Assembly (NCBI GenBank): GCA_029851965.1
Contig: JARKUW010000033.1
Location: 1 to 32,809 of the forward strand
Direction of reading: 5' to 3'
DNA length: 32,809 nucleotides
Origin: Bacteroidota bacterium
GTDB taxonomy: Bacteria > Bacteroidota > Bacteroidia > Sphingobacteriales > Sphingobacteriaceae
Positions within the stretch are counted from its first letter, which is position 1. Every line of letters begins with the position of its first letter. The notes under the pieces were generated by a model. It was not told the DNA's origin, made no database searches, and saw nothing but the letters and a program-made list of their open reading frames with translations. Shown one piece after another: positions 1,855 to 14,466 of the stretch. A program made the position numbers and the translations under genes.

Positions 1855-2910
1855 CTATGGATCTGTGTTCTTAGACTCTGCATGCTTCACCACATTCTTG
1901 AGGTGCTTATCAAGTTCGAGGATACTTTCCTCAAGTAGCTTCAAGATGGTTGCTGAGTCATCTGATTCAGAGCTCGTATTCAGCAGTGGAATCAACCCCA
2001 TTACATTTGCCAGGGGCCTTCTGATCATGTGAGACTGGCTCATGGCAATTTGCTCGAACGTATCCTGATTTTCCGTAATCGTTTTTTGGGCGGAGGACAG
2101 ACTGGATGACAGGGAAGAGTGGCTCGCGATCTGCTGGAGCTTTTGTTTATTGATGTTGGTTGCGGATCCAAACCAGAGTTCGATCTTGCCGGCTTCGTTG
2201 TAGTAAGGCTCTGCACGAAACAGGTACCATTCCGGGTCTTTATTCTTTGCCTGAAAGCGCAATTCCTTTTCCATTATCTTTCCGGTTTTCAGGCAGCTTC
2301 TCCAGTATAGCAAGAGGCCGCGGCGGTCTTTTGGATACACGCCTGCAAATTTGCTGTAATCAGCCGGATCCTCGAAGTTAAAATAATCCCGCACACGATC
2401 GTTGATGAAGTTAATCTGTCCGTTCGGCAGCGCCGTAAAGATCATATTGGGTGTTAAATCGGCGAGGAATTTGAACCTTTTTTGCTCTTGTTCAGCAATC
2501 CGTTTCTCCTGCATCAGTTCTTTTTCGTACTTCTTCCGGTCGGCAATTCTGTGGATAGAGGCATTGATCAGCAGTACCTGTCCTTGCGCATCCTTATGTG
2601 CCGTAGCATCAAACAGGATGTCCAGCCGCTGATCCCTGGTAACCAGAACCAGGCTAATCTCATTTACACTTCCCTGTAAAGACAACATTGGATTGAGGAC
2701 CATCTGAAAATACATACTGCCCGCCTTCGTTAATATAGAGGTCATATTGGACTGGCAAACTTCTGAAGGCGGACGCCCAAGCCAGGAACACAGGGTCTCA
2801 TTTACGCGGTGGATGTTCCCATCGGGGGTAAAGGAGATGAGGCCGGAGGGTGCATGCTGGTAAAGAAATTCAGCATCCAATAAGTGAGAGAGTTGATTTT
2901 GTTCCGGCAT
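1855..2910 (-). CDS. PAS-PAS sensor protein ending in a histidine-kinase H-box (no ATPase domain)
   Basis: This is a 351-residue cytoplasmic protein with no membrane segment. A first PAS domain spans about residues 10-120 (HAPSGLISFTPDGNI, then VNETLCSWLGR). A charged helical linker (about 122-145) leads to a second PAS/PAC domain (about 148-255, TPNMIFTALPNGQINFINDR). A predicted coiled helix then carries an H-box-like motif, SQSHMIRRPLANVMGL, with His294 as the possible phospho-acceptor. The protein stops about 55 residues later, so the N, G1 and G2 boxes of a kinase ATPase domain are missing. It lies 6 bp from the upstream rsbQ-like gene, or closer to 790 bases of shared transcript, which suggests an input partner as in RsbQ-RsbP. 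Whether it signals, accepts phosphate in trans or is degenerate cannot be told from sequence. Confidence 0.82.
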   Translation of the reverse strand: MPEQNQLSHLLDAEFLYQHAPSGLISFTPDGNIHRVNETLCSWLGRPPSEVCQSNMTSILTKAGSMYFQMVLNPMLSLQGSVNEISLVLVTRDQRLDILFDATAHKDAQGQVLLINASIHRIADRKKYEKELMQEKRIAEQEQKRFKFLADLTPNMIFTALPNGQINFINDRVRDYFNFEDPADYSKFAGVYPKDRRGLLLYWRSCLKTGKIMEKELRFQAKNKDPEWYLFRAEPYYNEAGKIELWFGSATNINKQKLQQIASHSSLSSSLSSAQKTITENQDTFEQIAMSQSHMIRRPLANVMGLIPLLNTSSESDDSATILKLLEESILELDKHLKNVVKHAESKNTDP

Positions 2911-2916
2911 AGATCT

Positions 2917-3702
2917 TTATTCGGTTATAAAGTTTTCGATTGCACGTATAACTTCTTGCGGATCACTCAGATGCGGGCAATGGCCGGTAGATTCCAGGAA
3001 GACCATTTCATTCCCCTTGGTATGTTCGAACACGTATTCAGCAGTTGTAAATGAAGCAAGAAAGTCTTCCCTGCATTGAATGGTTAAACTTGGAATATTC
3101 AAGCGCGACAGGTCATTCCGGTTATCGGACAAAAATGTTACCCGCGCAAACTTCCTTGCGATCTCCGGGTTGGTGCTGCAGAAGCTCTCCGCAAGGCCGT
3201 CCGACAGCTCAGGACTGTTGGCGCTGCCGACAATCACCGGAGCAACGGAAGCAGACCAGCCCAGATAGTTACTGTCCATAACTTCCAGAAGCTCTTCCAG
3301 ATCTGCGCGCTCCATGGCACCGACGTAATCCGTGTCGTGGGTGTATCGGGGGGAGGGGCCGATGAAGACTATTTTCTTAAAGAAAGCGGGTTCCTTATTA
3401 ACTGCAATCAGACCGATCATGCTACTCACAGAGTGGCCCACAAAAACAACGTTCTCGAGCGCTAACGCGGAACAGATGTCCAGGACATCCTGTGCATAGC
3501 CGCTGAGGTCATTGTAACGCTCATCATCGTAGGCGCTCAGATCTGAACCACCCGCACCTACGTAATCGAAAACAACGATCTTGTACTTGTCTCTAAATGC
3601 CGGTAGCACAAATCTCCAGGTATTCTGATCGCATCCAAAGCCATGCGCGAACATTAACGTCAAATTTCCCTCGCCTGATACGGTGACGTTGTTCCGTTTC
3701 AT
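2917..3702 (-). CDS. RsbQ-like alpha/beta hydrolase (energy-stress / KAI2-like family)
   Basis: This alpha/beta-fold hydrolase strongly resembles Bacillus RsbQ. Shared features are FAHGFGCDQ near the N-terminus, FDYVGAGGSDL, GYAQDVLDICSAL, the nucleophile elbow VGHSVSS, FCSTNPEIARKFA and TGHCPHLSDP. From the ATG at 3702 the triad is Ser91, Asp213 (CRED) and His241, giving 261 residues against 269 in RsbQ. A TTG at 3741 would add 13 residues and cannot be excluded. In Bacillus, RsbQ activates the PAS-PP2C phosphatase RsbP, probably by way of a small hydrophobic ligand. Plant karrikin and strigolactone receptors belong to the same family. Here the downstream partner is the PAS-PAS protein at 1855-2910. 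The family call is strong; the ligand is unknown. Confidence 0.88.
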   Translation of the reverse strand: MKRNNVTVSGEGNLTLMFAHGFGCDQNTWRFVLPAFRDKYKIVVFDYVGAGGSDLSAYDDERYNDLSGYAQDVLDICSALALENVVFVGHSVSSMIGLIAVNKEPAFFKKIVFIGPSPRYTHDTDYVGAMERADLEELLEVMDSNYLGWSASVAPVIVGSANSPELSDGLAESFCSTNPEIARKFARVTFLSDNRNDLSRLNIPSLTIQCREDFLASFTTAEYVFEHTKGNEMVFLESTGHCPHLSDPQEVIRAIENFITE

Positions 3703-3990
3703 GATTCTTTTTACCTCGGGATCAATGTTGTTGGTATTCAATGTCTTAAGGGTTAACTTTTACTTTGCTAGTTAAATAGTCAGGAATTTTCCGACATTTG
3801 CTTCCGTTGAAGCAGTTATAAAAAGTTAAAGATCGGCTTTTTTGATTTACGAAGCAATGCCTTCTGGCAGTTGGTGGAAGTTGTTCTCATTTGTAGCCTG
3901 TTGGGGTGCGAATATATATTGAAAGGCTGATCCCGTAGATTCAGATCGCAGATCTTGTAACGACATCTGAAACTCGACATGTTTTTAGTT

Positions 3991-5509: not shown

Positions 5510-7456
5510 ATGATAAAATCAAACGGCAAAAAGCGAGTTATCATCACCAATGTATCTCCAACCGTTGAATCGGGAAGATACACGGCGAAAGCGGTAACCG
5601 GAGATGAAATTACATTTACGGCGGATGTCTTCGGAGACGGACATGACGTCATAGCAGCAAGCATATATTTCAGGCAGCAAGGGCTTGATAACGTGGAAGA
5701 GCTTCCAATGACGCTCATCAATAATGATCACTGGGAAGTCGCCCATGTTTTCAATCAGACAGGGCGGTTTGAATTCTGGGTTGAAGGATGGGAAGATCAT
5801 TATGGCAACTGGACACACGGCCTGATCAAGAAATATGAAGCCGGACAGGATCTCACGGTAGAGCTTCAGATCGGCATTAATCTTATTCAAAAAGCCGCTG
5901 AATTTTCAGCTGCCAACCGGGAGGTACTGCTGCAATGGATCGAAAGGTTTAACCAGGCGGAAAGTGTCGCGGCCTCTGTATCCCTGGCCTTAGCTCCAGA
6001 ACTGGTCAAGCTGATGTATAGCTACCGGCAACCCGACATTATTACGGCTTCCGACTTTTATCCACTGGAAATCGAGCGAAAGAAAGCTGGATTCAGTAGT
6101 TGGTATGAGCTGTTTCCAAGATCTGCATCGGCCGAGGCCGGAAAACATGGAACTTTCAAGGATGTAATGAACCTGCTGCCGAGAGTAGCGCAGATGGGCT
6201 TTGATGTTTTGTATTTTCCGCCTATACATCCCATTGGGGAGAAAAACAGGAAAGGGAAAAACAATAGCCTTACGCCGGAGCCCGGCGAACCGGGGTCACC
6301 CTGGGCCATCGGGAACAGAAAGGGCGGGCATAAAGCGATCCATCCGGAGCTGGGTACGCTGCGCGACTTCAAGAAGTTGATTGCGGCGGCGAATAGCCTC
6401 GATATTGAGATTGCGATGGACATCGCTTTTCAGTGTGCGCCGGACCACCCCTATGTGAAAGAACATCCGGAGTGGTTTACCTGGCGGCCGGATGGCACTG
6501 TTCAGTATGCGGAGAACCCGCCAAAAAAATACGAAGATATTCTTCCTTTCAATTTTGAAACCGACGACTGGGAAAATCTGTGGGAGGAGCTGAAAAGTGT
6601 TATTGAATACTGGGTAGATGCCGGTATCCGGATATTCCGCATAGACAATCCACACACCAAGGCCTTTCGTTTCTGGGAATGGACGATCAATGAGATCCGG
6701 ACCAAGAACCCTGAAGTTTTATTTCTTGCAGAAGCGTTTACCCGCCCCAGGGTGATGGAGCGCCTCGCTAAAGCGGGCTTCAACCAGTCATATACTTACT
6801 TCACCTGGAGAAACAATAAAAAGGAGCTGGAAGAGTATATGCTGGAACTGACACAAACGGAGATGCGGTATTATTTCCGCCCCAATTTCTGGCCGAATAC
6901 ACCAGACATCCTTCCTCCGGCTTTAATTCACGGTGGCGAGAATGCGCACATCATGCGTCTGATACTTGCAGCAACGTTGTCTTCCAGCTACGGAATCTAT
7001 GGTCCGGTGTATGAATTCGGCATCAATACGCCTCATGGCGCAAAAGAGGAGTACGTGGACAATGAGAAATATGAGATCAGGCATTGGAACTGGAATCAAT
7101 ATACCCGGATAACCGAGCTTATTATCCGTATTAACCAGATCCGTAAAGAGAATGCAAGTTTACAAACCACCTGGAATGTAGCGTTCGCGGAAACAACAAA
7201 CGCCCAGATTATTTGTTACATCAAAACAGATCCGGCAACGGGGAACCGGCTGATTATCGCGGTGAACATGGACGTGCAGCATACGCAAAGTGCAATGGTC
7301 AGAATTCCGCTTGCTGAGCTGGACATTCTGCCCGGATCGTCGTTCCGTATACACGATCTGCTAAGTGGAGACAAATATACCTGGCAGGATGAATGGCAGT
7401 ATGTGGAGCTAAATCCATACTTAATGCCCGCACATATTTTTAGAATAGAATCATAA
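5510..7456 (+). CDS. glgE: Alpha-1,4-glucan:maltose-1-phosphate maltosyltransferase GlgE
   Basis: GlgE (GH13 subfamily 3) transfers maltosyl units from maltose 1-phosphate to the non-reducing end of alpha-1,4-glucan, releasing phosphate. An N-terminal beta-sandwich and helical region (about residues 1-200) precedes the TIM barrel. The GlgE-specific stretch FPPIHPIGEKNRKGK is present. Catalytic residues read as Asp379 (nucleophile, FRIDNPHTK), Glu408 (acid/base, LAEAFTR) and Asp466 (NTPDILP). The length of 648 residues is normal. It is the first gene of a plus-strand operon with treS-mak and glgB. The start ATG at 5510 follows 144 bp of non-coding sequence without a convincing promoter match. 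The assignment is very secure. Confidence 0.96.
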   Translation: MIKSNGKKRVIITNVSPTVESGRYTAKAVTGDEITFTADVFGDGHDVIAASIYFRQQGLDNVEELPMTLINNDHWEVAHVFNQTGRFEFWVEGWEDHYGNWTHGLIKKYEAGQDLTVELQIGINLIQKAAEFSAANREVLLQWIERFNQAESVAASVSLALAPELVKLMYSYRQPDIITASDFYPLEIERKKAGFSSWYELFPRSASAEAGKHGTFKDVMNLLPRVAQMGFDVLYFPPIHPIGEKNRKGKNNSLTPEPGEPGSPWAIGNRKGGHKAIHPELGTLRDFKKLIAAANSLDIEIAMDIAFQCAPDHPYVKEHPEWFTWRPDGTVQYAENPPKKYEDILPFNFETDDWENLWEELKSVIEYWVDAGIRIFRIDNPHTKAFRFWEWTINEIRTKNPEVLFLAEAFTRPRVMERLAKAGFNQSYTYFTWRNNKKELEEYMLELTQTEMRYYFRPNFWPNTPDILPPALIHGGENAHIMRLILAATLSSSYGIYGPVYEFGINTPHGAKEEYVDNEKYEIRHWNWNQYTRITELIIRINQIRKENASLQTTWNVAFAETTNAQIICYIKTDPATGNRLIIAVNMDVQHTQSAMVRIPLAELDILPGSSFRIHDLLSGDKYTWQDEWQYVELNPYLMPAHIFRIES

Positions 7457-7469
7457 CCCAACACACCAT

Positions 7470-10400
7470 ATGGCTGAGCAAAACACTCCAATAGACGATA
7501 ACCTGCATTGGTATAAAGACGCGATTATATATGAACTTCACATTAAGGCCTTCCGCGATGGCAACGGGGATGGCATCGGGGATTTCCAGGGCCTTATAGA
7601 AAAGATACCTTACCTGGCTGACCTCGGTGTGACGGCCATATGGCTGTTGCCATTCTATCCATCGCCGCTAAGGGATGATGGCTACGATATTTCCGATTAC
7701 TACCACATTAATCCTTCGTATGGTGACATTAAACAATTTAAAGCCTTTTTAAAGGAAGCACATAAGCGAGGGTTACGGGTAATTACGGAGCTGGTCATTA
7801 ACCACACGTCTGACCAGCATCCCTGGTTTCAACGGGCCCGGCTGGCACCGAAAGGCTCCAAGCTGCGGGACTATTATGTGTGGACGGATGATCCGACCGA
7901 GTTTAAGGACGCCAGGATCATATTTCAGGATTATGAGACCTCAAACTGGACATGGGATCCAGTGGCCAAACAATACTTCTGGCACCGCTTCTTTCATCAT
8001 CAGCCGGATCTAAACTTCGCGAACCCGGTGGTTCAGCAAGAGGTATTTAAAATCATGGACTATTGGTGTAAGATGGGCGTTGACGGCTTCAGGCTGGATG
8101 CCGTGCCGTATCTGTTTGAAAGAAATGACACCAATTGTGAGAACTTACCGGAGACACATGATTTCCTGAAAAAGCTGAGGAAATATATAGATGACCACTA
8201 TCCAGGTACGCTTCTGCTTGCAGAGGCCAACATGTGGCCGGAAGATTCTGCAGCCTATTTTGGTGAGGGGGATGAGTGTCAGATGAACTATCATTTTCCG
8301 CTGATGCCACGGATGTTTATGTCTTTACAGATGGAAGACAGATACCCGATAACGGACATTTACGATCAGACACCGGCAATTCCGGAAACCTGCCAATGGG
8401 CAATTTTCCTTAGAAATCACGATGAGCTAACGCTGGAAATGGTGACGGATGAAGAGCGGGATTACATGTACAAAGTTTATGTGAAGGATCCAAAAGCCAG
8501 GATAAACCTGGGTATTCGACACCGGCTGGCACCATTGCTGGAAAATAACCGCCGGAAAATAGAACTGATGAACACCTTACTTTTCAGTTTGCCGGGAACG
8601 CCGGTGATCTACTATGGCGACGAGATCGGAATGGGTGATAATTTCTATCTCGGCGACCGCGATGGGGTACGTACGCCGATGCAGTGGCATTCCGATCGGA
8701 ATGCAGGCTTCTCTGCGGCCAATCCCCAACAATTGTATCTTCCGCTTATCCTGGACCCGCAATTCCACTACGAGTCCGTCAATGTCGAACTTCAGTCCAG
8801 AAATACATCATCGCTACTGTGGTGGATGAAGCGGGCAATTAATACCCGGAAAAAATACAAAGCGTTCGGACGCGGAGATTTGAAATTTGTACAAAGCGAA
8901 AATGCGAAGGTACTTGCGTTTACGCGGACCTACGAAGACCAGACCATGCTTGTCATCGCCAACCTCTCTAGATTTGCACAGGTCGCAGAGCTTCAGCTGG
9001 ACAGCTTCAAAGGCTATGTGCCGGTAGAGATACTAAGCAGAAACCGCTTTCCGATCGTGCGCGAAGATGTACCTTATTTCTTCACCCTCGGGGCCTATGC
9101 AACACAAAGCTTTATTTTAGAAAAGACACATTCAGAACTGGAGAATGACCATGAGCTGCACACACTGTCCCTGAGCAAGTGGAAAGACCTGTTGAAGCGG
9201 GAAGTGCTGGAAAAACTGGAGAATGAGATCCTGCCCAAATACATGATGCGCCTTCGCTGGTTTGGAGGCAAGGGCAGGGGCATGGAAACTGTAAAGATCA
9301 TTGATCATGCAACCATTCCAATGGAACAGAATCCAGCATTTGTCCTGCTGCTTGAGGTATCTTACCGTGACGGCCTGCCGGACATGTACCAACTTCCGGT
9401 CGCATGCGGAATGGGTGAGTTTTCATACAAGATCAAGGACAGTTGCCCGCAGTCGGTCATCGCCATGCTACAGCTGGATGGTGAAGATGTGGTACTGTAT
9501 GATGCGATTTACGGACTGGACTTTCAGCAGGCGGTAATCAATAGCATGGCACGGCAGCATACCCTGAACCAGGGCGGTTCAGAGCTCCTCTTTTCTGGAA
9601 ACAGGGCCTTACGAAAACATCTCGTGTTAAATCCGAAGACTAAACCACGGGTAATATCAGCCGAGCAAAGTAATACATCCATCACCTATGACAACGCTTT
9701 TTACCTGAAATTCTACAGGAAAGTGGACCGTGCCATCAATCCGGACGTGGAATTGAGCCGCTTTCTGACGGAGAGTGCCAAGTTCAAACATACCCCCGGC
9801 TACATTGGAGCGATCGAATGGAAGTTTGGGAAAGATAAGACCATGGTGCTCGGCATGATGCAGGAGATGGTCAGCAGCACGAGCGACGGATGGGAGTATA
9901 TGATAGATCGTCTGAATGATTTTAATGAAAAGATCCTTGCGCATCCGGATGCAGTTGCGGCTCCGCCGGAACTTGTAGGAACGTTGACCAATCCAGTTGC
10001 TTATGAAGAGATTCCAGAAACAATAAAGAGCTTGCTGGAGGCGACGGTCGCGGAACTGGCGACCATGCTGGGCAAACGGACGGGAGAGATGCATCTTGCT
10101 TTATCTTCAAATACCGATCAGGCTGCATTCCAGCCAGAGCCTTTCTCGCTGCACTACCAACGCTCGCTGTTTTCATCTTTGCAGTCATTGGTGCGGGTTG
10201 CCTTCCAGAGCCTGAGTAAGAATATGAAGTCACTCTCTCCGGCTGTTCAGGAGGAGGCCGCAGAAGTACTGAAGATGAAGGATGAGATCCTGAACATCAT
10301 GAAGCGGATTTACAGTAAAAAGATCGACGTTACAAAAATCAGGATCCATGGCGATTATCACCTGGGGCAGGTTTTGTTTACGGGTAAAGATTTTCTGATC

Positions 10401-10811
10401 CTTGATTTCGAAGGGGAGCCTTCGCGCAGCTACAGTGAAAGGCGATTGAAGTACTCGGCCCTTCGGGACGTCGCCGGTATGATCCGGTCCTTCCATTATG
10501 CCGCTTATGGCAGCCTGTTCCTCGACAACCAGATCCGGGAGGAAGATATTGTTACGTTGCTGCCTTATGTGCGGCAATGGTACCATTATATGAGCGGATT
10601 CTTTATACAGTCGTATCTGGACACCGTTGGTGAGGCGCCGATCGTTCCCGACAACAGGGGAGACCTGGAGATCCTGATGCAAACGTATCTTCTGCAAAAG
10701 GCGATATATGAATTGAATTATGAATTAAATAACAGACCCGACTGGGTGATTGTTCCTTTGCGCGGAATCAAAGCAATTGTAGAAAAAAACCGTAAAGTGA
10801 CGGTTCAATAA
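7470..10811 (+). CDS. treS: Trehalose synthase (maltose alpha-D-glucosyltransferase)-maltokinase fusion
   Basis: This bifunctional protein of 1113 residues lies 13 bp after glgE. The N-terminal GH13 trehalose synthase (about residues 10-555) interconverts trehalose and maltose. It shows IYELHIKAFRDGNGDGIGDF, Asp210 (FRLDAVPYL), Glu252 (LLAEANMWPED) and Asp318 (RNHDE). The C-terminal maltokinase (about residues 560-1110) phosphorylates maltose to maltose 1-phosphate with ATP. It shows RLRWFGGKGRG, the aminoglycoside-phosphotransferase-like catalytic loop IHGDYHLGQV (Asp962) and the metal site LDFEGEP (Asp979). The fusion delivers GlgE's substrate directly. Such fusions are known in other bacteria. 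The stop overlaps the glgB start (TAATG). Confidence 0.95.
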   Translation: MAEQNTPIDDNLHWYKDAIIYELHIKAFRDGNGDGIGDFQGLIEKIPYLADLGVTAIWLLPFYPSPLRDDGYDISDYYHINPSYGDIKQFKAFLKEAHKRGLRVITELVINHTSDQHPWFQRARLAPKGSKLRDYYVWTDDPTEFKDARIIFQDYETSNWTWDPVAKQYFWHRFFHHQPDLNFANPVVQQEVFKIMDYWCKMGVDGFRLDAVPYLFERNDTNCENLPETHDFLKKLRKYIDDHYPGTLLLAEANMWPEDSAAYFGEGDECQMNYHFPLMPRMFMSLQMEDRYPITDIYDQTPAIPETCQWAIFLRNHDELTLEMVTDEERDYMYKVYVKDPKARINLGIRHRLAPLLENNRRKIELMNTLLFSLPGTPVIYYGDEIGMGDNFYLGDRDGVRTPMQWHSDRNAGFSAANPQQLYLPLILDPQFHYESVNVELQSRNTSSLLWWMKRAINTRKKYKAFGRGDLKFVQSENAKVLAFTRTYEDQTMLVIANLSRFAQVAELQLDSFKGYVPVEILSRNRFPIVREDVPYFFTLGAYATQSFILEKTHSELENDHELHTLSLSKWKDLLKREVLEKLENEILPKYMMRLRWFGGKGRGMETVKIIDHATIPMEQNPAFVLLLEVSYRDGLPDMYQLPVACGMGEFSYKIKDSCPQSVIAMLQLDGEDVVLYDAIYGLDFQQAVINSMARQHTLNQGGSELLFSGNRALRKHLVLNPKTKPRVISAEQSNTSITYDNAFYLKFYRKVDRAINPDVELSRFLTESAKFKHTPGYIGAIEWKFGKDKTMVLGMMQEMVSSTSDGWEYMIDRLNDFNEKILAHPDAVAAPPELVGTLTNPVAYEEIPETIKSLLEATVAELATMLGKRTGEMHLALSSNTDQAAFQPEPFSLHYQRSLFSSLQSLVRVAFQSLSKNMKSLSPAVQEEAAEVLKMKDEILNIMKRIYSKKIDVTKIRIHGDYHLGQVLFTGKDFLILDFEGEPSRSYSERRLKYSALRDVAGMIRSFHYAAYGSLFLDNQIREEDIVTLLPYVRQWYHYMSGFFIQSYLDTVGEAPIVPDNRGDLEILMQTYLLQKAIYELNYELNNRPDWVIVPLRGIKAIVEKNRKVTVQ

Positions 10812-12783
10812 TGGCATCTATGGCGAAAAACACGATAAAAACTGTTGCAAAAGTGGAAAGCGGCCCGGCCTGGTTTTCTTTGTTTTCTGATGAAGATATA
10901 CTGCTGTTCAAAACGGGGAAACACCGCACGCTTTTTAACAAGCTTGGCGCACACCCGGTTGAACACAATGGCGTGAAGGGCACCTATTTTGCGGTCTGGG
11001 CTCCAAATGCGAAGTACGTCAGCGTAGTTGGAAACTTCAATGGATGGGAACGCCGTGCAAATCCCATGCATGTACGTTGGGACAGCTCGGGCATCTGGGA
11101 ATGCTTCATTCCTGGGATTTACGGTGCAGAATACTACAAGTACTTTATAGATTCCCACACTGGTTATCAGGTGGAGAAAGGCGACCCTTATGCCTTCCAT
11201 TGTGAAACGCCTCCGCACACGGCCAGTGTGACCTGGGACCTGACCTATCAATGGAACGATGCGGACTGGATGGCACAACGCAAGGACAAGAATGTACTGC
11301 AGCAGCCCGTTTCTATTTATGAGCTGCACCTGGGGTCCTGGCGTAGGAAAAACGGAGAACAGCCCAACGAGTTTTTGACATACCGCGAACTGGCTGCCGA
11401 ACTTCCTGCATATTGCAGTTATATGAATTTTACTCACGTGGAGTTCATGCCCGTTATGGAACATCCATTCTACGGTTCATGGGGTTATCAAATCGTGGGT
11501 TTCTATGCACCAAGCAGCCGCTATGGTACAACACAGGACTTTATGTACCTGATTGATCAGCTGCATCAGGCTGGCATAGGCGTTATTCTGGATTGGGTAC
11601 CCTCTCATTTTCCGACCGACGAGCACGGACCGGGATATTTCGACGGTACTCATTTGTACGAATACGAAGATCCACGCAGGGGGTTCCATCCGGACTGGAA
11701 GAGCTTCATTTTTAATCTTGGGAGAAATGAGGTCAGGGCTTTCCTGATCTCAAATGCTGTATTCTGGCTGGAAAAGTATCACATTGATGGTTTAAGGGTA
11801 GATGCGGTGGCATCCATGTTGTATCTGGATTACTCCCGGAATGAAGGGGAGTGGCTTCCGAACATCTATGGAGGTAGAGAAAACCTGGAATCGATCAGCT
11901 TTCTTCAGGAGTTTAATGAAGTGATACATGAGCGACATCTGATGTATTTACTGTTGCCGAGGAATCTACATCCTGGCCGGGCGTGACGCACCCGGTTGTC
12001 AATGGTGGCTTGGGCTTCGACATGAAATGGATGATGGGATGGATGCACGACACGCTTGGTTATCTCGAGAACCCTACGGTCTACCGGAAATACCATCAAG
12101 GCCAGCTGACCTTTAGTCTGGTGTACGCCTTTTCTGAAAAGTTCATGCTTCCTTTGTCGCACGATGAAGTGGTTTATGGGAAAGGCTCTTTGATTAATAA
12201 GATGCCTGGCGACAACTGGCAGCAGTTCGCGAATCTCCGTTTGCTGTATGGCTACATGTATGGCCATCCCGGTGCTAAAATGATATTTATGGGCGGCGAA
12301 TTTGCGCAGCGTCATGAGTGGCAGCACGACTACAGTCTGGATTGGCATGAAAATAACAATCCCGATCACCAGGGGATACAGCGCGTCGTACGTGATTTGA
12401 ATAAGTTCTATAAGGATCATCCTGCACTGTATGAAAACAACTTCTCGTCGGAGGGTTTTGAGTGGATCAATGCCGATGATGCAGCGCACAGCGTTATCGC
12501 ATGGATCCGGAAGGCAGAAGATGAACAGCTGATTTTTATTGCGAACTTTAGTCCGGTGGTGTGGAATAATTACCGGGTAGGGGTGCCGAAGTTGGGATTT
12601 TATCAGGAAGTGTTCAATACTGATAACCTGTATTATGGTGGAAGCGATCAGTTGAACGCAGGACGGCTGGAAACATCACCGATTCCGTACAATGGAAAGA
12701 CGCATTCCTTATCGTTAACACTACCGCCATTGGGCATGATCATACTTCAATTTAACGATACTTACAATTGGTATAAGCCTTAA
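10811..12783 (+). pseudogene. glgB: 1,4-alpha-glucan branching enzyme GlgB, interrupted by a one-base frameshift
   Basis: GlgB introduces alpha-1,6 branches into the glucan made by GlgE. The 5' part, in frame with the ATG at 10811, encodes a CBM48-type N-terminal domain (YFAVWAPNAKYVSVVGNFNGWE) and the first half of the GH13 barrel, including nucleophile Asp331 (LRVDAVASML). It then runs into a short foreign tail ending at 11986. The rest of the barrel, with acid/base Glu in VAEEST (codon 11959) and Asp in [10 protein letters not shown] (codon 12163), lies in the next frame from about 11941 to the stop at 12783. Inserting one base at 11939-11940 restores [14 protein letters not shown] and gives a normal 657-residue protein. 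The two pieces do not each hold a full active site. It may be a real mutation or a sequence error. Confidence 0.9.
11939..11940 (+). other. Frameshift site in glgB (one base missing)
   Basis: The codon between CAT (His, 11936-11938) and GAT (Asp, 11941-11943) has only two bases, CT. Family members have a residue such as Pro here (xPDVxTIAEES). The upstream sequence matches GlgB in one frame and the downstream sequence matches in the frame one base shorter. No slippery heptamer such as A AAA AAG and no nearby Shine-Dalgarno-like stimulator is seen, which argues against programmed frameshifting. The missing base most simply is one C. Confidence 0.8.
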
Positions 12784-12806
12784 TCTTGTGAAAGATTAAG
12801 GCTTAT
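12773..12806. terminator. Bidirectional hairpin terminator between glgB and glgP
   Basis: This is a perfect inverted repeat with 15-bp arms (12773-12787 and 12792-12806) and a four-base loop GTGA. The glgB stop codon (12781-12783) lies inside the left arm. The hairpin sits between two convergent genes and can serve both; on the plus side a short T-rich run follows. Confidence 0.75.
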
Positions 12807-12813
12807 CTTGTTG

Positions 12814-14466
12814 CTACATTTTATACATTTTCTCGTAATACTCATTGGCGAGGCGGCCTGCTTCGAAAGCTGGTACAACGTCTGCTGCGGCCTGCTTCAG
12901 GATCTGCAGCCAGGCTGCTTTGTCTCTGTAGTACATGGGAAGAACGGTACGCTCCAGGGTGTTCATCAGGTTTTCATTTTCGATCTTATCTTTTTCGTCC
13001 ACAGGTAAGGAATCTGCTGCAGGCTCGATGATAAAGCAGTTTTCAAGCGGCTTAGCAAATTCAGGTACCCAGCCATCTGGTATGGATAAGTTTATCGCAC
13101 CGTTCATTGCTGCGGCCATCCCGCTGGTTCCGGATGCTTCACGATACATTCGGGGATTATTCAGCCAAACATCTGCACCCTTCTTGAGGTAAGCGGAGAG
13201 GTCAAGCTCATATCCCGTCAGGACGGCACAGTTCTTAAAGGGACGTGCGCGGTTGATGATGTGGTTGAAGAGGCCAATGGCTTCCATGTCTTTCGGGTAA
13301 GGCTTTCCTGCCCAGATCAGCTGCACAGGGAACTCCGCGTTGTTGATCAGCCTGGTAAAGCGTTCCCAATCCTGCATCATCAGATCCGCACGTTTATACC
13401 CCGCAAAGCGCCTTGCCCAAACGATGGTAAGGACATTTTCGTCAAACAGCTTTCCACATTGGTCTGCAACGATCTTAAAGAGTTCGGCTTTCATCTCTTT
13501 TTTACGGCTGGTAATCGCGGTATCATCGTTACCGGCAATTGCATCATCGAAAACGGGATCTTTCCAGTAGGTTTTATTTTGCGCATTGGTGATCTCGGTG
13601 ATCTCACATACACCCGGATTACTTCCCCACATCTGGCGTGCAACTTCCCCGTGAAGGACGGAGACTCCATTGGCTTTACGTGCGAATTTTAGTGCACCCA
13701 GGGTATAGTTGAAGTCGTGACCGTCCATTCCTAAAATGTACTTCACTTCATGCTCCTGCAAGTGGTAAAAGAAAGACATCTCCTTAAGCAGCGCGTAGCT
13801 GTGCGACTCGTTTCCGGCCATTTCAGGTGTATGGGTGGTGAAGACAACGCGCTTTTTAACCTCATCAAGATTCCTGAATTTGGCATAGAGGTAGAAATTC
13901 AAGGGAACGGCATGGCCTTCATTCATGTGATAGACATCAGGCGTGAGCTCCAGCTGATCCAGCAGGATCGCGCCGCCAATGCCCAAAATGATGCTCTGTG
14001 CAATGCGGGTCGATTCATTGGCGTCGTAAAGGTTGTTGGTGATCGAACGGGACAATACATCATTCTCCGGAATGTCTGTACTCAACAGGAACACTGGTGC
14101 AGACTTGAACGTTTCCGGTTTAAGCAGCCAGACCTTCACCCTTACCGGGGTATCGTGGACCGGAACTGTAAAAACCAGGCCCGTATCCTGCAGATACGAG
14201 TAGTCTTTCTGAACGAAATCCGGCTTCATCTGTGCATGTTCGTCCCTTACCTGTTCATAATAGCCATATTTCCACAGCATTCCAATGCCAATAAGGTTCT
14301 GCTTGAGTTCGTAGGCGCTTCTAAGATGGGAGCCGGCCAGAAAACCCAGGCCACCGCTGTAAATTTTGAGCGCCTGATCTATGGCAAACTCCATAGAAAA
14401 GTAAGCAACGGAGCGGGCGTATTTTTCGTCGGGTTCATACCCGAATATTTCTTGTCTGGTAAGCAT
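12814..14466 (-). CDS. glgP: Alpha-glucan phosphorylase-like protein (GT35, short type) lacking the PLP lysine
   Basis: Members of the short alpha-glucan phosphorylase family release glucose 1-phosphate from glycogen or maltodextrin. The 550-residue product shows AYFSMEFAIDQALKIYSGGLGFLAGSH in two overlapping motifs at the N-terminus, HMNEGHAVPL, TTHTPEMAGN and the phosphate-site motif WARRFAGYKR. In the C-terminal signature EASGTSGMxAAMNG, the position that is Lys in classical enzymes (Lys680 in rabbit muscle phosphorylase, forming the Schiff base with PLP) is Ala451 (codon GCC, 13114-13116). Either it has lost phosphorolysis and does another glucosyl-transfer or binding job, or it belongs to a subgroup with changed cofactor use. 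It converges on the GlgE operon, which supports a role in the same glucan metabolism. The symbol is given by homology only. Confidence 0.85.
   Translation of the reverse strand: MLTRQEIFGYEPDEKYARSVAYFSMEFAIDQALKIYSGGLGFLAGSHLRSAYELKQNLIGIGMLWKYGYYEQVRDEHAQMKPDFVQKDYSYLQDTGLVFTVPVHDTPVRVKVWLLKPETFKSAPVFLLSTDIPENDVLSRSITNNLYDANESTRIAQSIILGIGGAILLDQLELTPDVYHMNEGHAVPLNFYLYAKFRNLDEVKKRVVFTTHTPEMAGNESHSYALLKEMSFFYHLQEHEVKYILGMDGHDFNYTLGALKFARKANGVSVLHGEVARQMWGSNPGVCEITEITNAQNKTYWKDPVFDDAIAGNDDTAITSRKKEMKAELFKIVADQCGKLFDENVLTIVWARRFAGYKRADLMMQDWERFTRLINNAEFPVQLIWAGKPYPKDMEAIGLFNHIINRARPFKNCAVLTGYELDLSAYLKKGADVWLNNPRMYREASGTSGMAAAMNGAINLSIPDGWVPEFAKPLENCFIIEPAADSLPVDEKDKIENENLMNTLERTVLPMYYRDKAAWLQILKQAAADVVPAFEAGRLANEYYEKMYKM

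Follow-up and report, generated by a model that had tools for sequence, protein, structure and literature searches.

An RsbQ-family hydrolase gene is followed in the window, the 32,809-nucleotide stretch of a MAG (relatives: Pedobacter) analysed here, by a gene for a PAS-PAS protein that ends in a two-helix DHp and has no ATPase domain. The pair is conserved in members of two genera, and its DHp belongs to a family of orphan C-terminal DHp domains that recurs across Bacteroidota, keeps an invariant His, and departs from histidine kinases at the residues linked to kinase and phosphatase activity. We tentatively propose that the RsbQ-PAS module gates this His as a phosphotransfer site for receiver domains.

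The initial annotation had paired an RsbQ-like hydrolase with a PAS-PAS-H-box protein lacking an ATPase, and this description holds: both reading frames are intact, the domains are confirmed, and the hydrolase gene lies directly upstream of the PAS-PAS-DHp gene at an operon-like distance (Table 1). The neighbour on the far side of the PAS-PAS-DHp gene is convergent and ends 10 bp away, which leaves no space for a lost ATPase behind it, and neither a HATPase domain nor a receiver domain was matched anywhere on the 32.8-kb contig. The hydrolase is, by its sequence, a member of the RsbQ family, with full-length similarity to PDB RsbQ (1wom residues 12-272, E=3.3e-84) and a Ser-Asp-His triad aligned with that of RsbQ (Ser104 as nucleophile, 3430-3432; Asp226, 3064-3066; His254, 2980-2982). 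Translation from a possible internal ATG start at 3702 would instead give 261 aa, as in most homologues. Elsewhere in the window, positions 5510-14466 hold an apparent GlgE-type cluster for alpha-glucans, with genes for a maltosyltransferase-like protein, a trehalose synthase-maltokinase fusion, a branching enzyme, and a phosphorylase. In this group, the gene for the glycogen branching enzyme (10811-12783) is present as two overlapping frames of 391 and 266 aa, apparently split by a frameshift due to assembly error or mutation.

Table 1. Coordinates of the hydrolase and PAS-PAS-DHp genes and of the domains of the latter, in window positions.
Feature	Position	Strand	Basis or remark
RsbQ-family alpha/beta hydrolase, 274 aa from TTG	2917..3741	-	PDB 1wom, Abhydrolase_6
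Intergenic gap, 6 bp	2911..2916	-	ORF coordinates; consistent with an operon
PAS-PAS-DHp protein, 351 aa, without HATPase	1855..2910	-	Pfam PAS_4/PAS_9, weak HisKA; AF2
PAS1, RsbP-PAS type, aa 13-122	2545..2874	-	RsbP-like residue spacing
Helical linker PAS1-PAS2, aa 123-150	2461..2544	-	AF2 helix 125-150; 60% pairwise identity in class A
PAS2, aa 151-253	2152..2460	-	Pfam PAS_4 152-253
Signalling helix and two-helix orphan DHp, aa 266-349	1864..2115	-	Profile/HMM matches; AF2 hairpin
His294, predicted phospho-acceptor	2029..2031	-	Codon 2031-2029; H+1 = Met295, H+4 = Arg298

A Pfam scan of the 351-aa protein placed both PAS domains above the cut-off and HisKA below it at residues 293-339 (16.9 bits, cut-off 26.9), with no match to HATPase_c or to a further output domain (PPM, HK, or GGDEF). 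The AF2 model of the whole protein (mean pLDDT 76.7) consists of PAS1, a connecting helix, PAS2, a signalling helix, and DHp helices at 282-311 and 317-349, the chain stopping 2 aa after the helix pair; when the DHp was modelled alone from a 75-sequence alignment, a two-helix hairpin with a pLDDT of 85 was obtained. What had been described as a C-terminal dimerisation helix with His294 and no catalytic domain is accordingly a complete DHp helix pair without a HATPase. Foldseek searches with the whole protein returned PAS proteins only and were uninformative about the tail, and searches with the DHp ranked DHp domains highest (ERS1, CpxA, RetS, and GacS), all with E-values above 0.3. The H-box reads H294-M-I-R-R298 and does not match H-E/D-x-x-T/N.

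In Bacillus subtilis, RsbQ is known to contact the PAS domain of RsbP. By 2011, 45 cases of an RsbQ gene beside an N-terminal RsbP-type PAS had been collected (Nadezhdin, Brody and Price, PMC3183031); the reported outputs were PPM phosphatases, histidine kinases, and GGDEF domains, and the modules outside sigma-B were found in Gram-negatives mostly with histidine kinases (PMC3183031). The window pair resembles this module in its directly upstream RsbQ gene, its RsbP-type first domain, and its helical linker to the output, but differs in that the output is a DHp without a CA domain instead of a PPM, full HK, or GGDEF domain. The suggestion that it represents a variant of the RsbQ module outside sigma-B is thus sound with regard to the output, which is new, but not with regard to the setting, as non-sigma-B modules have been known since 2011.

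The PAS1 signature was compared by way of published RsbP positions and spacings, not the RsbP sequence itself, and on this basis L60, Y67, P74, and E84 of PAS1 have the spacing of L48, F55, P62, and E72 in B. subtilis RsbP. Alanine substitution at L48, F55, Y59, or E72 of the RsbP PAS gives a null phenotype; three of these four positions fit in PAS1 (L60, Y67 as the aromatic consensus, and E84), and at the fourth V71 replaces Y59 (H/Y). The Y59 equivalent is Val or Ile in all members of the DHp-only group of partners (class A), and a signature Pro of RsbP (P86) is also lost in PAS1, while the Glu at the E84/E72 position is found in nearly all of the RsbP-type partners aligned. By analogy with RsbP, PAS1 would be the domain that contacts RsbQ.

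We sought RsbQ relatives in 200 near relatives (51 with matches), 396 phylum genomes (22 with matches), and a number of named genomes. Most of the RsbQ-PAS pairs surveyed across Bacteroidota end in a full kinase: downstream of the 86 RsbQ genes placed in the tree there is a full kinase in 44 cases, no partner in 33, and a DHp-only protein in nine. These nine pairs, six from the Pedobacter group and three from Mucilaginibacter (one frameshifted), form one group among kinase-paired lineages (support 88/76, 84% of bootstrap trees), which fits a single output switch followed by long retention, with moderate tree support. The possibility that the two genes lack conserved co-occurrence was also considered, and the pairing proved to be kept in both genera. 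Homologues are 42-49% identical to the window protein, and an equivalent of His294 is present in all eight class A proteins. One homologue of 217 aa, from P. quisquiliarum (G100, L012), has lost PAS2 and kept PAS1 and the DHp. Carriers of the pair include soil bacteria of the Pedobacter group, and in the MAG G076 the catalytic Ser of the RsbQ homologue paired with a DHp-only protein (L018:1495-2316) is replaced by Cys (GHCVS).

Nearly all of the partnerless RsbQ genes (31 of 33) fall in one Pedobacter clade (L025, L027, L034-L038, and L227-L251); with no PAS partner downstream, these homologues may act alone or with a PAS protein encoded elsewhere. A separate RsbQ-like clade (L252-L258 and L164) adjoins kinase frames of 500-680 aa; their N-terminal region could not be aligned as an RsbP-type PAS, and they may represent a further pairing of a hydrolase with a sensor.

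The closest kinase-ending counterparts of the window protein are informative about the origin of its tail. Class B partners are PAS-PAS-HisKA-HATPase kinases with the H-box SHELKTP and are approximately 35% identical to the window protein over both PAS domains. These and the class C partners (PAS-HisKA-HATPase) share with it the operon order and a homologous PAS1, in class B also PAS2, but carry an H-E/D-x-x-T/N box, a HATPase, and a DHp of another family. An HMM of orphan DHps built without class A scored class A tails at 62-87 bits (73 for the window tail) and class B at 6-18 bits, whereas an HMM built from 100 kinase DHps scored class A at 22-39 and class B at 82-95 bits. Because the class A and class B DHps come from different families, the window protein is the product of an output swap, not of truncation; the concern that it might be a truncated kinase was well founded insofar as full-kinase relatives exist, but their DHp is of the other family. 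A split kinase was considered too, but no CA-only gene was found adjoining the class A loci; the short HATPase frame on C160 belongs to a kinase interrupted by the end of the contig.

The ATPase-less tail is not peculiar to the RsbQ pair: the same DHp type occurs in at least seven proteins of the MAG and, at E<=1e-8 with the tail profile, in 50 of the 396 sampled Bacteroidota genomes, representing 27 genera. The seven proteins that scored above 43 bits in the MAG have no in-frame HATPase and end within 12 aa after the DHp. Six of them, all PAS-rich, are encoded on other contigs (G000 contigs C125, C46, C114, C276, C119, and C142; L004-L009), and one of these six is only 215 aa long with a single PAS. 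All 29 newly fetched loci of the phylum sample have the same ending and no HATPase. More generally, every orphan-DHp protein examined at 37 bits or above ends 0-31 aa after the DHp without a HATPase, and DHp-HATPase proteins score at most 30 bits. Pfam HisKA matches 74 of 75 family members. Among solved structures, the best match of the tail-family profile is the GacS DHp in the RetS-GacS complex (7n0e, E=4e-9), and RetS was matched as well.

Residue conservation was assessed in 40 members whose retrieval did not rely on a search pattern containing the His. This His, an Arg at H+3, and an Asp in helix 2 are each present in 40 of 40; the tail profile itself contains the His, although the conservation of the latter is still marked given that neighbouring residues vary freely. 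Position H+1 is acidic in only six of the 40, as opposed to 81 of 83 H-boxes (E/D) in kinases of the same loci, and is Met or Leu in class A; at H+4, 35 of the 40 have Ala, Lys, or Arg, and 64 of the 83 kinases have T/N. In HisKA kinases, the acid at H+1 is required for kinase activity and T/N at H+4 for phosphatase activity (PMC3510030). Judged from these alignments, the orphan DHps keep the acceptor His without an ATPase domain and without the residues linked to either activity, and the window tail, with its invariant His, H+3 Arg, and helix-2 Asp and its end right after the DHp, is a member of this family. No description of a Bacteroidota orphan DHp family was found in the open-access literature (most subscription journals lay outside the search).

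Genes neighbouring other family members offer a clue to function. A single-REC gene lies within 300 bp on the same strand in 13 of 39 non-RsbQ orphan DHp genes, compared with two of 31 ordinary kinases of the MAG. Nine of the 13 cases represent one orthologous operon type, HK-REC-[REC-PAS-DHp]-REC, with recurrent sizes of ~145 aa for the REC, ~345 aa for the REC-PAS-DHp, and ~135 aa for the final REC protein, and the receiver Asp is kept in the aligned REC domains. Operons of this type were observed at L259-L264 (e.g. L262:1568-4782) in several Bacteroidota families. Their gene order suggests a His-Asp-His-Asp relay with the CA-less DHp as the middle step. The bearing of this adjacency on the RsbQ-paired branch is indirect; of the eight sampled class A proteins, none is encoded next to a single-REC gene, and no receiver partner was found within the 9-kb class A loci, save a short REC frame ~1.7 kb away in L073.

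Our leading but still tentative reading is that the RsbQ-PAS module gates His294, which would serve receivers as a site of phosphotransfer or phosphate acceptance in the manner of Spo0B or ChpT. RsbQ would bind or hydrolyse a small molecule and act on PAS1 of a dimeric PAS-PAS-DHp protein, and the resulting change would reach the four-helix bundle of the DHp by way of the helical linkers and PAS2. There it could gate His294 for REC domains whose phosphorylation takes place elsewhere in the cell. Like Spo0B, ChpT, and PhyT, the protein, which cannot itself generate phospho-His from ATP, would control phosphate flow between receivers. The invariance of the His favors a phospho-acceptor role, and the missing acid at H+1 speaks for an exchange with receiver domains over simple phosphorylation by a different kinase; the initial annotation's suggestion that His294 accepts phosphate from another kinase holds up better for the acceptor than for the donor. 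Against phosphotransfer stand the absence of single-REC genes beside class A, the concentration of REC adjacency in one operon type, and the few family members that do keep an acidic H+1. The degenerate CA kept by Spo0B and ChpT is moreover absent in the window protein, four class A proteins (L069, L072, L075, and L079) are encoded without a hydrolase gene beside them, and PAS1 lacks the His/Tyr and Pro of the RsbP signature.

It is also conceivable, if rather unlikely, that the DHp is phosphorylated in trans by the CA of a separate full kinase, in a split or heterodimeric arrangement, with RsbQ-PAS modulating the substrate of a partner kinase. The invariant His and intact DHp hairpin would suit such a substrate, the MAG encodes more than 40 HATPase proteins, and HK genes occur within the REC-PAS-DHp operons; however, the acid that kinase action requires at H+1 is rare in the family and absent in class A, and class A loci have no conserved neighbouring kinase. 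We likewise consider it unlikely that the DHp is a non-catalytic regulator that heterodimerises with the DHp of a full kinase to inhibit or tune it. The DHp-DHp heterodimer of RetS and GacS is established (PMC12148439), and regulation at the DHp level together with the profile match to 7n0e recalls it, but RetS and GacS are full-length hybrid kinases, closeness to GacS says no more than that the domain is a DHp, and pure binding would not require the His and the H+3 Arg to be absolutely invariant. A role as a response-regulator phosphatase or phosphate sink without relay, proposed for archaeal proteins with HisKA and no HATPase (PMC5847659), appears improbable in that the Thr/Asn needed at H+4 for HisKA phosphatase activity is replaced by Ala, Lys, or Arg, although a sink operating through phospho-His could still function. 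Finally, decay or truncation of a kinase gene, or an assembly artefact, can for practical purposes be dismissed. The source MAG is fragmented (294 contigs, 78.6% complete) and full kinases with similar PAS domains exist, but isolates encode intact proteins of this architecture (P. hartonius, P. metabolipauper, Pedobacter sp. MR2016-24, M. arboris, and M. lacusdianchii), the H-box is the best conserved stretch in class A (mean pairwise identity 75%, against 46% for each PAS), and the tail is of a different family from the kinases' DHp with no HATPase remnant found.

Phosphotransferases with a DHp fold and no kinase activity of their own are known in Spo0B, ChpT, and PhyT (PMC5898713), but these carry a degenerate ATPase-like domain, have no RsbQ/PAS input, and have demonstrated phosphotransfer, whereas for the window protein phosphotransfer is a prediction. 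Archaeal "HisKA, no HATPase" proteins, noted in 2018 with suggested phospho-acceptor, phosphotransfer, or phosphatase roles (PMC5847659), resemble the window protein in domain make-up, in that they combine PAS/GAF domains with a C-terminal HisKA that has a conserved His and lack a HATPase, and they include REC-(PAS)n-HisKA forms; they differ in being archaeal and in having no RsbQ link. The RsbQ-PAS module and CA-less HisKA proteins in archaea are therefore already known, and what appears to be new is the joining of RsbQ-PAS to a CA-less DHp output and a coherent Bacteroidota DHp family with its own H-box signature.

The CA-less DHp constitutes a fourth kind of output for the RsbQ-PAS sensing module, and proteins of this type are easily misannotated as histidine kinases or overlooked. 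It is possible, though we hold this wider proposal with some doubt, that Bacteroidota possess widespread sensor-gated, ATPase-free DHp phosphotransferases acting between receivers, and that RsbQ-PAS was recruited to one branch of them. If orphan DHps do relay phosphate, they could link many "orphan" kinases and receivers of Bacteroidota. The RsbQ pair is a small system through which genetics could approach both the signal sensed by RsbQ and the role of the CA-less DHp. Should the proposal be true, a hydrolase receptor of the RsbQ/KAI2 type would control one step of a phosphorelay rather than a kinase or phosphatase.
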